DNA of 64,000 bases from Candidatus Nitrosopumilus sp. (GTDB lineage: Archaea > Thermoproteota > Nitrososphaeria > Nitrososphaerales > Nitrosopumilaceae), in the NCBI GenBank assembly GCA_028343855.1, contig JAOLZN010000005.1:1-64000 (forward strand). Reading direction: 5' to 3'. Each line of letters starts with the position of its first letter. Position 1 is the first letter of the stretch. The notes beneath the pieces were generated by a model that had not been told where the DNA came from, did no database searches, and saw only the letters and a program-made list of their open reading frames with translations. The translations under genes and the position numbers were made by a program. Positions 45,422-61,963 of the stretch are shown in pieces.

Positions 45422-45519
45422 GAAAAAACTCTAAATTTTAAAATTACTCTTGAGCCCACGATTGAGATTTTGTGAATTTATTCTTACTAAAACTAAAAAC
45501 ATTACTTACACTTTGTCGG

Positions 45520-45527
45520 TTATACAA
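45520..45527 (+). promoter_or_regulatory. TATA box of cdvA
   Basis: TTATACAA is centred about 23 bases before the ATG at 45546, predicting a transcript that begins within a few bases of that ATG. It argues against the longer frame that opens at 45450. Confidence 0.5.
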
Positions 45528-45545
45528 ATCTCATTAGTCATTACC

Positions 45546-46424
45546 ATGACAAACGACGATATCGAAATAATCGGTAAAAACGTCAAAGACATGTACGGAA
45601 CATTCATGGGTAAGGTCGTAGGTACAATCACTGAAATTGACGGAAGTATTCAATCCGTTGGTATTGACTGCGGTTCTCAAGGATTACAGCAAATCCAATT
45701 TGAGCAACTTGTGGCACAAGGTGATAATGTAATCTTCATTCCAAAATGGAGACTCGACTCACAAAGACTCATTCGTGAAAAACAACTCACTCTACGTCGT
45801 CTAAAAGCATTGATGGATATTGTTTCAGAAAATGATGATATGAAAGCAGACGCTGAAATCATTCATGAGAAATACAAATTCAAACTTGCATCTTTAGATG
45901 AAATGGAATCTGAAATCAAATCTAAGCTTGAAGGAAGATTAATTGAGTTAGATACACAAATGAAATCTGCAAAAATGTTATCGTTTGATGCCAAAGTACA
46001 ATTCAAAAGCAACGAAATCTCTGAGGCAACATTTGAAACTGTGAAATCATGCACAACTGAGGTAATTGAGCATGTAGCACACGAACAATCTGAAATTTCA
46101 AATGTAAAGAGTAGAATTGCTGATTTAGAATTGGAAGTGCAAGAGATAACATCACCTGCAGAAGCAAAGATTCAAGAATCTGCCGTTTCATATCTGGAGA
46201 CACCTGAACAACAACAAGTAGTTCAAACAATACTTCCAGAAGCACCAACAGAACCAATCGTAACACCTTCAGAACCAATTGAAGCTCAAGTACACCCTAT
46301 ACCAGAGCCACCTACTGAATCTGAAGTGACATTTGCATTTCCAGAACCACCTCAACAGGTGACATCAGAAACATCTAACGACGACAACGATAATGATTGG
46401 CTTGCTAGAATGGAAGCACAATAA
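45546..46424 (+). CDS. cdvA: Cell division protein CdvA
   Basis: A 292-residue protein. Residues 1-75 form a PRC-barrel-like domain (DIEIIGKNVKDMYGTFMGKVVGTITEIDG), then a coiled coil at about 85-200, a Pro/Glu/Thr-rich linker, and a C-terminal tail ending NDDNDNDWLARMEAQ that would bind CdvB/ESCRT-III. CdvA is the first division-ring protein at mid-cell in Crenarchaeota and many Thaumarchaeota. cdvB and cdvC are not in this window. C-ending codons are unusually common (as in EF-1A), pointing to strong expression. Confidence 0.88.
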   Translation: MTNDDIEIIGKNVKDMYGTFMGKVVGTITEIDGSIQSVGIDCGSQGLQQIQFEQLVAQGDNVIFIPKWRLDSQRLIREKQLTLRRLKALMDIVSENDDMKADAEIIHEKYKFKLASLDEMESEIKSKLEGRLIELDTQMKSAKMLSFDAKVQFKSNEISEATFETVKSCTTEVIEHVAHEQSEISNVKSRIADLELEVQEITSPAEAKIQESAVSYLETPEQQQVVQTILPEAPTEPIVTPSEPIEAQVHPIPEPPTESEVTFAFPEPPQQVTSETSNDDNDNDWLARMEAQ

Positions 46425-56781: not shown

Positions 56782-58062
56782 ATGGTATTTGGATGGGGTA
56801 AAAAAAAGCAAGTGGAAGAACCTGTTGAACGTAAAGCAATCAATCAAAATATCGAACTTTCTGATGTTTCTAAAATTATAGACGATTTAAGTAAATTGAG
56901 AGAATCTCAAACTCTTTCTGAAATAAAAAATTTGAGAAATAGTACTGCTCCTCTTATTGATGATTTAATGAAAATAGGCATTGTTCTTGAAAAAGATGAT
57001 CTAAATATTGATGATATTGATAAACACTTAGCTATAATTGTTGTGAGGGGAAAAAAACAAGTTATTGATATTTTGAAAAAAGATGTAAAGAATTTAATTC
57101 AAGTTTCTACAATTGATGATGCAAAAAAATTAGATTATTTTTTGACTCAACTTCTTAAAAAAGTTGGTGACGTTTTAGGAAGACAAACTAGAGTGATTCA
57201 TATTTTTGCAAAAAAATATGCAAATCAATTAACTGACAATCTAAAAATTATGAATGAAAATTCTGATAATATTTCACAACTTTTAAAACATTATGCATCT
57301 AGACAATCTACTTTTGAAGAAATTAATGAAATGTTGATTAAAATTAAATCCCTTAATCAAGAACATTCTGATAAAACAAAAAGGAATTCTGAGATATTAT
57401 TAAATTTAAAATCTATTGAAGAAAAAAAGATCTTGCTACAGAAATCTTTGGATGAGATTCATGCCTCAGAAAATTATAGAAATTATGTTGATTTAGAAAG
57501 TAAACTGAATCAATTTTCTAATCAAAAATCTACTATTAAATCTGAAATTGATACACAATTTACAAAAATCTCTCGTCCTTTAGGTCGATATGCATATGCA
57601 TCATCATTGGATAAGGAACAAACAAAAATTTTGTCTACTTTGGTAGATAATCCATTTGATGCACTTGTGCCTGAAAACTTTGATTCTATAATCGTTATTT
57701 TAGAAAATATTAGAAAAGGAATCTCTACGGGTTCTATATCTGTAAAAGATACTCAAAAAATGATGTCTCAATTGACTGAAACAGAAGAATCTTTGAATAC
57801 TTTCATAAAAAAAGTATCTGATTACAATGACACTTTTAATTCTATGAAAAATGATCTTACTAGTTTGAAACCTGATAATTTGACAACTCTTGAAAATAAT
57901 ATTTCTAAAAATAATAATTCTGAAACTGATTCTCATGAAAAATCTAAAATCATTTTATCTGAAATTAACGACATTGATACTCAAATCCCTGATATTATAT
58001 CTAAAATTGAAGGTAAATTACAATTATTTTCAAATACTAAATACAATATATCACGATCTTAA
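56782..58062 (+). CDS. Large coiled-coil protein, 426 aa
   Basis: MVFGWGKKK at the N-terminus, then a long, almost entirely helical protein with coiled-coil stretches (for example SLNQEHSDKTKRNSEILLNLK and LESKLNQFSNQKSTIKSEID). There is a conserved-looking central segment RPLGRYAYASSLDKEQTKILSTLVDNPFDALVPENFDSIIVILENIRKG. The protein is soluble and K/E/S/N-rich. Not an SMC protein (no P-loop). Its downstream partner (31 bases away) is a JAMM protease; the two look co-transcribed. Role unknown. Confidence 0.75.
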   Translation: MVFGWGKKKQVEEPVERKAINQNIELSDVSKIIDDLSKLRESQTLSEIKNLRNSTAPLIDDLMKIGIVLEKDDLNIDDIDKHLAIIVVRGKKQVIDILKKDVKNLIQVSTIDDAKKLDYFLTQLLKKVGDVLGRQTRVIHIFAKKYANQLTDNLKIMNENSDNISQLLKHYASRQSTFEEINEMLIKIKSLNQEHSDKTKRNSEILLNLKSIEEKKILLQKSLDEIHASENYRNYVDLESKLNQFSNQKSTIKSEIDTQFTKISRPLGRYAYASSLDKEQTKILSTLVDNPFDALVPENFDSIIVILENIRKGISTGSISVKDTQKMMSQLTETEESLNTFIKKVSDYNDTFNSMKNDLTSLKPDNLTTLENNISKNNNSETDSHEKSKIILSEINDIDTQIPDIISKIEGKLQLFSNTKYNISRS

Positions 58063-58093
58063 AATTAATTTACTTAGAATTTGAAGTCTTCTT

Positions 58094-58516
58094 ATGTTTT
58101 TTAAAAATAACAAAATCGAACGTAAGGTCTTACTTGATAAAAGTGTCTTAGATAGTATTGTGACCTTTTGTAAAATGAAGCATCCTAATGAAGGCATTTT
58201 GATATTGAAAGGAAAATCTAAAAATGGTCAAATCAAAATTGATGGATTAGCTATTCCTCCATTTAATTTCACAGGTCCTACATTTGCAGGATTTCCACAT
58301 TCTTTCTTGCCATTTGATAATAGCTATATTGGCATTGTTCATTCTCACCCTTCAGGTTCAGCTGAACCTTCTGTAACTGATTTGAATAATTTTTTTGGTT
58401 TGGTTTCGTTAATTATTCAATCTCCGTATGATGATGATTCCATTTTTGCATGGGATAGTGGTGGCAACACAATTCCATTATCTATAAACGATGAACATGA
58501 AACAGAGAAAAACTGA
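58094..58516 (+). CDS. JAMM/MPN-domain metalloprotease
   Basis: A 140-residue single-domain JAMM protease. The motif is complete: E33 (HPNEGIL), H83 and H85 (HSHP), then S93 and D96 (SAEPSVTDLNNF), i.e. E...H-x-H-x7-S-x2-D. JAMM enzymes remove ubiquitin-like modifiers (SAMPs in archaea). Near-perfect motif, so active. It lies between a coiled-coil gene and a zinc-ribbon membrane gene in the same direction. No ubiquitin-like protein or E1 is nearby. Confidence 0.9.
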   Translation: MFFKNNKIERKVLLDKSVLDSIVTFCKMKHPNEGILILKGKSKNGQIKIDGLAIPPFNFTGPTFAGFPHSFLPFDNSYIGIVHSHPSGSAEPSVTDLNNFFGLVSLIIQSPYDDDSIFAWDSGGNTIPLSINDEHETEKN

Positions 58517-58554
58517 CAAAGCTTTATAACCTTTTTTAAGGAACTTTTAGTGAT

Positions 58555-58899
58555 TTGAATCCTCAATTAAAAAAATATTATATTTTTCTTGGTGCATCAC
58601 TTGTATTTAGTATTGGTTTGCAAATTGTTTTAGGTTATCTTGGTGTTCCTTGGTTTATCAGCATTGGACTAGTTATGGCAATATTTATTTTACTTCCAAT
58701 GTATATGCGAAGACGACAAATGGGACAAATGGGAAATTATGGCGGTAGCTCAAGTGGCGCTGGAGGTGGATTCTTTGGAAGTGGAGGCGGACAAAGTGAT
58801 TCCACAAATGTTCGTTATGTATGTCTTGTTTGTAACAATAAACACAAAGGTGGCTCATGTCCTCGATGTGGTTCAAAAATGCAAAGAGCTGATTTTTAG
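58555..58899 (+). CDS. Membrane protein with C-terminal zinc ribbon
   Basis: Starts at TTG 58555. Two membrane segments (about residues 9-27 and 30-48), then a basic turn (RRRQMGQ), a Gly/Ser-rich flexible linker (GGSSSGAGGGFFGSGGG) and a C-terminal zinc ribbon (YVCLVCNNKHKGGSCPRCGSKMQRADF: CxxC...CxxC). The ribbon probably lies in the cytosol. Follows the JAMM gene by 38 bases. Function unknown. Confidence 0.75.
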   Translation: MNPQLKKYYIFLGASLVFSIGLQIVLGYLGVPWFISIGLVMAIFILLPMYMRRRQMGQMGNYGGSSSGAGGGFFGSGGGQSDSTNVRYVCLVCNNKHKGGSCPRCGSKMQRADF

Positions 58900-59230: not shown

Positions 59231-60604
59231 CTATCTTTTTAATTTTGGATTAATTATTGAATCTAGAGCATTTCCAATAAATACAAATGCCAAACCTGTG
59301 ATTGCAATCATTATTCCTGGAGGTATTATCCACCACCAAAGTCCTCTTGCGGCTGCACCAAATATGTTTGCATCATGCAATATTTGTCCCCATGTTGGAA
59401 ATGATGGATCTCCTAATCCTAGGAAACTTAATCCAGCTTCTGTGGTAATTGCGGCTGGAACTGATATGGCAACACTTGCAAATGCATATGGGAGTAATTG
59501 TGGTAAAATATGCTTGAAAATCATTTTTGAATCTTTTTGACCCATCATGGTGGCTGCTTCCACATACCCTCTAGTTTTGATTTGAAGTGACATACTTCTT
59601 GCCACTTTTGCAATTCCTACCCAACCAAAAATCATTAAAAATCCAATCATCACAAATATGCTGTTGCTGATTGTTACAGAAAGAATAATTAAAAATGGTA
59701 ATGCCGGCAATGCGTAAATCACATCATTAAATCTCATTAACGCTTCATCTGTTTTTTTACCTTTGAATCCTGAATAAACTCCATAAACCAATCCTGCAAC
59801 TACTGATGCTATTGAAACGACTAGACCGATGAATAATGCTAGTGGAGTTCCCCACAATAATCCTATGGCTAAATCCCTTCGTAATTCATCTGTTCCCATT
59901 ATTCCAAATGCTTTTCCGCCTATGATTAAATTTGATTTTATGATTTCGCTTTTTTCATTAATTTCGTACAGATTAATTAAAAATACATAATTTCCTTTTA
60001 ATGGCTCATTACGTTCTGTTTTTGAAAAAATTATGTCTTCTGCAGATAAATTGTCTATTTGAAATCTAAATTTTTCATTATTTAATAATAATTCTTTTTT
60101 AATTATTGCATCTGTTGAAAATATTTTGTCTTCGTGATTTGTTATGGCATTGGAATGTGGGAGTGCTGTTGAAATTAATTTTATTTCAATTCCATCTGGT
60201 CTAATTACTGACATTTCAAGTAATGGCGAATTGATGTATTCTGCTGTATATGAATAAATAAAATCATTTGGAAATTGATCATACTCAAAATTAAAACTAA
60301 ACTGATATGATGATAAATTTATTTCTTGATTTGACTTTTTTTCAATATTTGGATTCATCAAAATTTTGTGTTCTGGAATTTTTTCAAACACCAATAAATT
60401 TACCCATACTGGTATTGCTGTTTTTGGATATGTCATCCAACTATTTGGATTATTCCATTCTTGAAAAGTTTCTACTGGAAAAATTATTATCGTAATTATT
60501 GATATTATGATTAACATTCCTAGAATAATGATTCCTGCAATCCCCATTTTGCTTCTAAAAAATTCTCTTTTGATATCTTGTGGTGTAATACTACTCATTT
60601 TCAT
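59231..60604 (-). CDS. Oligopeptide/dipeptide-type ABC permease DppC-like, with long extracytoplasmic insertion
   Basis: A 457-residue permease, longer than the usual ~300. The permease core is standard: RDLAIGLLWGTPLALFIGLVVSIASVVAGLVYGVYSG, MFNDVIYALPALPFLIILSV and the EAA-loop TRGYVEAATMMGQKDSKMIFKHILPQLLPYAFASV. The extra length is an insertion of about 160-190 residues between TM1 (~20-42) and TM2, probably outside the membrane. Its ATG overlaps the dppB-like stop (TAATG), so they are translationally coupled. Confidence 0.9.
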   Translation of the reverse strand: MKMSSITPQDIKREFFRSKMGIAGIIILGMLIIISIITIIIFPVETFQEWNNPNSWMTYPKTAIPVWVNLLVFEKIPEHKILMNPNIEKKSNQEINLSSYQFSFNFEYDQFPNDFIYSYTAEYINSPLLEMSVIRPDGIEIKLISTALPHSNAITNHEDKIFSTDAIIKKELLLNNEKFRFQIDNLSAEDIIFSKTERNEPLKGNYVFLINLYEINEKSEIIKSNLIIGGKAFGIMGTDELRRDLAIGLLWGTPLALFIGLVVSIASVVAGLVYGVYSGFKGKKTDEALMRFNDVIYALPALPFLIILSVTISNSIFVMIGFLMIFGWVGIAKVARSMSLQIKTRGYVEAATMMGQKDSKMIFKHILPQLLPYAFASVAISVPAAITTEAGLSFLGLGDPSFPTWGQILHDANIFGAAARGLWWWIIPPGIMIAITGLAFVFIGNALDSIINPKLKR

Positions 60605-61656
60605 TACTCCGAACTTGTACGAATCCTAGGATCAAAATACCCATAAAGTAAATCTGAAATGAATATGCTTGCTAGGAAAAATACTGTGAGAATGTATGTT
60701 GCACCAATAATCACCGGCAAATCCATTACGGTAATTGCTTCAAAATAGAGTCTTCCCATTCCAGGCCAATCAAACACAGCTTCAGTAATTATTGCTCCTC
60801 CTAATGAGCCTGATAAACTAAGTGCTAAAATTGTAATTATTGGTGGCGCTGCATTTTTCAATGCATGTGTATATGTAATTTTATTTTGTTTTATCCCGAT
60901 TGCTTTTTTTGCTGTAATGAAATCCTCCTGCATAATTCCTACCATAAAATTTCTCACTAAATATGCCCATGAACCAAATCCTATCATGACAATTGTGATT
61001 AGTGGTAATACCATGTGATACAATAAAGCTCCAATGTATTCTGGACTTGATGATGGGATATCTGGGGTAGCTCTTGCTGGAAATATTTGATATGTAAAAG
61101 CAAATAAAAATATCATCAACATCCCAATCCACCACACTGGAAAACTGGAACTAATAATTGCAAAACTTGATGTTATACGATCTATCAAAGACCCAATTCT
61201 GCTTGCAGAAAAGGCCCCTAGAAAAATCCCTATTATTGAAATTAATATTGTGGCTGTTGTAAATAATAAAATTGTTCTTGGAAGTTTTTCAAAAATAATA
61301 TCTTTTACATCTGATGATCCTAAATCACTAGTTAGAAAAGTTGCTTGTCCAAAATCTAATAATATTATTTTGTACATTGTTAACCCAATTCTTTGAGGCG
61401 AGTACCATGGTTCATCTAGACCTAAATTTTTTATTCGTTGTTCTGTTTGACTTTCAATAAATGACTCAAACTCTTGAACTGATGAAAAACTTTCAACCAT
61501 TGCCGGATTTTCAGTAATTTCAGATCTAACTTGAAACACCACTCCTTGTTTTAGAATCGTATCCATGTTGGAACCGACGAGCATTATGGTGATTAGTAAT
61601 GTGATTAGCAGTACGCCAAACATTGTAACTGCACGTTTAGCAATGTATTTTTTCAT
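60604..61656 (-). CDS. Oligopeptide/dipeptide-type ABC permease DppB-like
   Basis: A 350-residue permease. Start at ATG 61656 (MKKYIAKRAVTMFGVLLITLLI) because the longer frame to 61737 would overlap the divergent 61715 gene. Typical DppB order: N-terminal TM, a longish extracytoplasmic loop, IKQNKITYTHALKNAAPPIITILALSLSGSLGGAIITEAVFDWPGMG (EAA loop and signature) and a final TM. It forms a heterodimer with the DppC-like protein. No binding protein or ATPase adjoins; one ATPase is at 3615-4550. Confidence 0.9.
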   Translation of the reverse strand: MKKYIAKRAVTMFGVLLITLLITIMLVGSNMDTILKQGVVFQVRSEITENPAMVESFSSVQEFESFIESQTEQRIKNLGLDEPWYSPQRIGLTMYKIILLDFGQATFLTSDLGSSDVKDIIFEKLPRTILLFTTATILISIIGIFLGAFSASRIGSLIDRITSSFAIISSSFPVWWIGMLMIFLFAFTYQIFPARATPDIPSSSPEYIGALLYHMVLPLITIVMIGFGSWAYLVRNFMVGIMQEDFITAKKAIGIKQNKITYTHALKNAAPPIITILALSLSGSLGGAIITEAVFDWPGMGRLYFEAITVMDLPVIIGATYILTVFFLASIFISDLLYGYFDPRIRTSSE

Positions 61657-61714
61657 ACTCAATACTCTTTTTTGATAGAAATCGTTTATAATATTATTAG
61701 ATTTTGAGCATGAT

Positions 61715-61963
61715 ATGAGCAGTCCTGCTACTATCAAAAAAGCAAAAAAACTCGTTGATGATGGTTGTATATCTAAAATTGAATCTGATTTATTTCAAAT
61801 TAGATCTTCTTCAGACCCCAACAAATCATATTTTGTAACATCTGATACTTGTGAATGTTTTGGATTCAAAAATTATTACAAATTCCATCATGGTAATGGA
61901 CAAAAAGCTAATTGTTCACATTTAGAGGCAATTAGAATTTTTAAAAAAGAGAATTCTGATTAA
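61715..61963 (+). CDS. SWIM-type zinc-finger protein
   Basis: An 82-residue protein with the SWIM motif C-x-C...C-x-H: CECFGFKNYYKFHH and later NCSHLEAIRIFK. SWIM domains bind DNA or proteins. Divergent from the permease genes and convergent (shared TTAA) with the ArsC-like gene. Confidence 0.8.
   Translation: MSSPATIKKAKKLVDDGCISKIESDLFQIRSSSDPNKSYFVTSDTCECFGFKNYYKFHHGNGQKANCSHLEAIRIFKKENSD

Follow-up and report, generated by a model that had tools for sequence, protein, structure and literature searches.

A coiled-coil protein (CC) and a JAMM/MPN+ metallopeptidase (JAMM) are encoded by a conserved two-gene unit of the Nitrosopumilaceae, in which a known protease family is paired with an unannotated coiled-coil partner. 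The unit lies in a 64,000-nt stretch of DNA (the window) from an archaeal genome of 1.2 Mb that, among named relatives, is nearest to Nitrosopumilus (Table 1). The three co-directional open reading frames proposed in the initial annotation were confirmed, with gaps of 31 nt between CC and JAMM and 38 nt between JAMM and the zinc-ribbon gene ZnR, and we found a fourth conserved gene, u105, that had been overlooked. Among 80 named Nitrosopumilaceae loci, CC and JAMM are adjacent in all 78 that have enough flank; the gap exceeds 38 nt in just 3 of 77 loci, and the six-gene order PKcyc-, CC+, JAMM+, ZnR+, u105+, OppC- is kept in 66. Coordinates read by eye also show CC next to JAMM in more than a dozen Nitrosopumilaceae genera, with genome G196 as an exception. 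Across the 148 Nitrosopumilaceae genomes in a 250-genome sample of the class, 137 carry both genes, 7 carry neither and 4 carry only one. Pairwise dN/dS, in those pairs for which it was estimable, ranges from 0.007 to 0.24. Conservation of order in 78 of 78 loci and these dN/dS values indicate that the cluster is not a chance arrangement.

Table 1 Features of the cluster, in window coordinates, and of the two ubiquitin-like (Ubl) fusions elsewhere in the genome
Feature	Position	Strand	Details
CC, 426-aa coiled-coil protein	56782..58062	+	ORF
JAMM/MPN+ metallopeptidase, 140 aa	58094..58516	+	E33, H83, H85, S93, D96
JAMM catalytic Glu33 codon	58190..58192	+	
JAMM HxH...D metal site	58340..58381	+	H83, H85, S93, D96
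TATA box CTTTATAA	58522..58529	+	32 nt ahead of ZnR
ZnR, 114 aa, TTG start	58555..58899	+	Hydrophobic (TM) segments, Gly-rich linker, zinc ribbon
u105, 105 aa	58908..59225	+	8 nt past ZnR; absent from the list in the initial annotation
Ubl-E1 fusion (P0001)	G000:C9:15984-17351		N-terminal Ubl, junction ...ILPAVAGG|SEDLSSKE
Ubl-Cgi121 fusion (P0002)	G000:C48:22741-23511		N-terminal Ubl, junction ...IIPVIHGG|ASKK

The JAMM protein matches the Prok-JAB family at 48.7 bits (E 8e-13, cut-off 25) and aligns with AfJAMM along residues 12-131 (E 3e-11). Its active site, described at the outset as intact, is indeed complete, and the motif E33, H83-S-H85-x7-S93-xx-D96 does not vary among 17 homologs, each taken from a different genome and together covering many families. 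Both sequence marks of a JAMM/MPN+ metallopeptidase, the intact motif and a JAB match over the length of the domain, are thus present, and JAMM is predicted to be an active zinc metallopeptidase of this known protease family. AfJAMM (AF2198, PDB 1oi0/1r5x) is likewise a single-domain archaeal JAMM with the same metal site, but no coiled-coil operon partner was found reported for it in the literature examined. Against the haloarchaeal desampylase model NF041370, the window JAMM scores 22.4 bits, under the curated cut-off of 130. In other families the JAMM gene adjoins a class-I glutamine amidotransferase gene (L072:7535-8598 and L075:3810-4829).

CC proved to be a real open reading frame with a confident, all-helical AlphaFold2 model (pLDDT 88, pTM 0.62), which bears out its initial description as a 426-residue coiled-coil protein. 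From the N-terminus, the model passes through a helical region, one long helix (residues 144-261) and a series of short helices, then turns back in helices that reach residue 417; the long helices are antiparallel-looking. Conservation peaks at about residues 260-275, within a segment spanning 259-330 (P266, Y270, P291 and K326). The start of the protein, MVFGxGxKK, is also conserved, with six of the first eight positions invariant within Nitrosopumilaceae; CC itself begins MVFGWGKKK and distant homologs begin with hydrophobic and basic residues. No Pfam or NCBIfam family matches CC, and comparison with solved structures returned no significant similarity and coiled-coil hits only (best E 0.03, TM 0.17). 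Homologs across the order are 389-460 aa long and share 16-20% identity with CC; our contig profile scan used Nitrosopumilaceae rows only, the all-order alignment being too diverse. A gene resembling a proteasome beta subunit (PF00227, 157 bits) lies about 40 nt past a CC homolog in genome G028 (L074:5523-7443).

Two readings of the pair are addressed directly by these properties of CC. An ESCRT/AMSH-like module was rejected: the catalytic domains of AMSH-family proteases, which belong to the ESCRT pathway, show profile similarity to JAMM (E about 1e-3), but CC has no ESCRT-III, MIT or CdvA match and its PDB fold hits are insignificant. The initial annotation had further raised the possibility of coiled-coil turnover, in which CC would be the substrate and JAMM would control its level. 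Adjacency is the one observation in its favour; the CC alignment reveals no conserved Gly-Gly or Ubl-like segment, and genome G026 has CC without a close JAMM, and we regard this reading as highly improbable.

Gene order in relatives, which the initial annotation had treated as decisive for the cluster, is conserved within Nitrosopumilaceae but not outside the family. There, CC and JAMM are both present and unlinked, far apart or on different contigs (G025, G027, G031 and G034); in G031, CC, ZnR and JAMM map to 2.00, 2.64 and 2.67 Mb, respectively. This separation is compatible with an unlikely alternative in which the family has simply inherited a gene order without joint function, CC being structural and JAMM a housekeeping Ubl protease. 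Flanking genes, divergent and convergent alike, hold their positions just as well in the 66 loci that keep the six-gene order, and JAMM and the OppC/OppB permease genes (window 59231-61737; L068; L174) are convergent neighbours in Nitrososphaeraceae-like genomes as well as in Nitrosopumilaceae. Mirror-tree analysis also fits such passive inheritance: the partial correlation for CC and JAMM is 0.52 versus 0.55 for CC and its adjacent divergent gene, and we dropped coevolution as evidence for the pair because the signal is not specific. What argues against inheritance of order alone is that the CC-JAMM spacing is close and almost always intact, while inserts break JAMM-ZnR in five loci, and that a genome nearly always has either both CC and JAMM or neither.

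The zinc-ribbon gene presents a different picture. ZnR encodes hydrophobic segments, a Gly-rich linker and a C-terminal CxxC...CxxC zinc ribbon (YVCLVCNNKHKGGSCPRCGSKM), the composition originally assigned to it; its start codon is TTG here and often ATG in relatives. In 72 of 72 loci, ZnR is preceded by a TATA-like motif at -34..-22, and in 60 the motif sits at -32. Within the same range, no TATA-like motif is found upstream of u105 or of JAMM, where 42 of 77 loci have one at -36 that overlaps the CC stop region. The gap between ZnR and u105, 8 nt in the window, has a median of 9 nt in relatives. Inserts of 1.0-2.4 kb separate JAMM from ZnR in five loci (L114, L118, L123, L135 and L162) and hold unrelated, foreign genes, such as a TFB-like gene in L162. 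Together, the ZnR TATA box, the tightness of CC-JAMM and the JAMM-ZnR inserts indicate that CC-JAMM is the conserved unit and that ZnR-u105 is probably transcribed separately, so that two units describe the cluster better than one. The membrane-tethered deconjugation unit that had been envisaged for the three genes is therefore doubtful in its tether, given the predicted promoter of ZnR itself and the JAMM-ZnR splits. u105 has an alpha/beta AlphaFold2 model and no family or fold match; with no PDB match to this model, we rejected u105 as a hidden ubiquitin-like protein. A CdvA gene (Pfam CdvA, 90 bits) lies at window positions 45450-46424, about 10 kb upstream of CC.

The initial observation that no ubiquitin-like protein or E1 lies near the cluster is correct for the window, which contains no match to either, and both were located elsewhere in the genome, as N-terminal Ubl fusions to E1 and to Cgi121 (Table 1). 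Cgi121 is a KEOPS subunit. Ubl-Cgi121 was detected in 25 of 25 Nitrosopumilaceae genomes tested, with HGG kept in all and the following residues variable, and Ubl-E1 was found in most Nitrosopumilaceae. The internal Gly-Gly is retained in every copy of either fusion that we saw, which suggests cleavage; outside the family, in five genomes, a short frame of its own encodes Ubl and the alignment ends at HGG. Ubl-Cgi121 and Ubl-E1-type fusions of Thaumarchaeota were already described in 2010 (PMC2948915).

A second JAMM is encoded on another contig of the source genome (G000:C1:72996-73274; L164:7886-8278). This paralog keeps the HSHP motif and, at 57.8 bits against NF041370 (cut-off 130), is nearer the desampylase model than the window JAMM. 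It sits between a cupredoxin-protein gene and a DUF2024 gene. Seven genomes without the window JAMM retain the paralog, and the six that were checked all still carry Ubl-Cgi121, so processing may need no protease besides the paralog. Both proteases might act on Ubl-Cgi121, or the window JAMM might have a different substrate.

If JAMM acted in E1-dependent deconjugation, E1 would be expected wherever the protease is kept. Counting as E1 a hit stronger than about 1e-60, so that a few fragmentary hits count as absent, we found E1 in 104 of the 137 Nitrosopumilaceae genomes that have both CC and JAMM, and 33 lacked a full-length E1. Profile searches of 14 highly complete E1-less genomes returned no ThiF over the curated cut-off in 13. 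Nearly complete Nitrosopumilaceae genomes without detectable ThiF/E1 that keep Ubl-Cgi121 include G071, G109, G127, G102 and G120, among others. An early co-loss signal had suggested E1-Ubl as an obligatory partner, and this candidate failed on the 250-genome sample with those 33 pairs. The pair thus does not need E1, Ubl-E1 cannot be its only substrate and pure deconjugation is not its obvious job, which weakens the second half of the proposed membrane-tethered deconjugation unit. Rather than simply undoing tags, the pair probably cuts Ubls from larger precursors or does something else.

The same counts bear on a desampylase-type role, in which JAMM would strip Ubl tags after E1-dependent conjugation and CC or ZnR would place the protease. 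This role draws on membership of the JAMM family and likeness to AfJAMM, on the activity of HvJAMM1, which does so in Haloferax according to the available text of PMC4443979, and on the presence of Ubl-E1 in most Nitrosopumilaceae genomes. The presence of JAMM and E1 is also correlated (Fisher p 0.005, uncorrected for relatedness), but it stems mostly from four genomes of a single genus that lack CC, JAMM and E1 together. At least three of these four also lack the neighbouring OppC, which points to loss of a whole segment. With the retention of CC and JAMM in E1-less genomes set against it, we judge tag removal unlikely.

Our preferred reading, which we hold tentatively and at less than even confidence, is that CC and JAMM form a two-gene operon in which JAMM is a Gly-Gly-directed Ubl-processing peptidase and CC its adaptor. 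JAMM would cut after the Gly-Gly of a Ubl domain, with the N-terminal fusions Ubl-Cgi121 and Ubl-E1 as the likeliest substrates, and the cut would release Cgi121 or E1 and make the Ubl C-terminus available for sulfur carriage or conjugation. CC would act as a dedicated adaptor or scaffold, with its long helical stalk, the conserved tip segment in the middle of the protein and a short N-terminus of hydrophobic and basic residues, and ZnR-u105 would be a neighbouring unit of uncertain relation. We infer the substrate, the contact between CC and JAMM and the adaptor role of CC. This reading is favoured by the invariant catalytic residues, the adjacency and joint presence of CC and JAMM, the conserved Gly-Gly of the fusions and precedent in the literature. 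Counted against it are the paralog in JAMM-less genomes, the pairs without E1, the non-specific mirror-tree signal, the lack of linkage between CC and JAMM outside Nitrosopumilaceae and the fact that neither Ubl gene adjoins the pair.

Retention of the pair in E1-less genomes, and a substrate gene unlinked to it, would also suit a regulated site-specific protease whose substrate has no relation to the two known Ubls, such as a membrane-associated protein that CC would hold; the N-terminus of CC looks like a docking or membrane motif. However, the characterized prokaryotic JAMM/MPN+ proteases in the literature examined all act on Ubl C-termini, and no result of our analysis suggests an alternative substrate, which makes such a protease rather unlikely. 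Defence and viral readings were likewise rejected. PADLOC matches the JAB motif only and none of the other cluster genes, and, of the E1/E2/Ubl or CD-NTase partners that a CBASS/Bil-type antiphage JAB operon would have, no E1 or Ubl match was found in the window. Searches for relatives of CC in phage records and of JAMM in viral contigs found none, and we discarded a viral origin.

Precedents exist for Ubl processing by JAMM proteases. Cleavage after Gly-Gly is documented for CsJAMM on SAMP precursors and for CsRpn11 on its Ub precursor (PMC6043591), and activation of a MoaD-MoaE fusion requires DRJAMM, which cleaves the fusion (PMC8832034). The desampylase HvJAMM1 and the SAMP protease CsJAMM resemble the window JAMM in being archaeal JAMM proteins and act on Ubl C-termini, with precursor cleavage shown for CsJAMM, but the window JAMM reaches just 22 bits against the desampylase model and the paralog 58. 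DRJAMM matures a Ubl-enzyme fusion and exposes the C-terminal Gly of the Ubl; it differs in being bacterial and in the fusion partner. A Ubl fusion with a conserved internal Gly-Gly, as a DRJAMM-like role would call for, occurs in the source genome. The Ubl-Cgi121 and Ubl-E1-TBP fusions of Thaumarchaeota (Makarova and Koonin 2010) are the same fusions present here; the available text of that paper names a cytidylyltransferase as the common Jab neighbour, and no mention of a CC partner or of JAMM fusion processing was found in it.

The Nitrosopumilaceae rank with the most abundant marine archaea, and no description of the maturation of their ubiquitin-like proteins was found in the literature examined. 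CC defines an unannotated coiled-coil family spread across the order. A bolder and quite improbable extension of the Ubl-processing reading is that JAMM and its dedicated coiled-coil adaptor make up an E1-independent Ubl machine, and that part of the Nitrosopumilaceae use the Ubl cut from Ubl-Cgi121 without an adenylating enzyme. The conserved Gly-Gly poses a sharp question, namely whether the window JAMM or its paralog cuts Ubl-Cgi121 or Ubl-E1 after it, and the nearly complete genomes that have JAMM but no detectable full-length E1 separate processing from conjugation.
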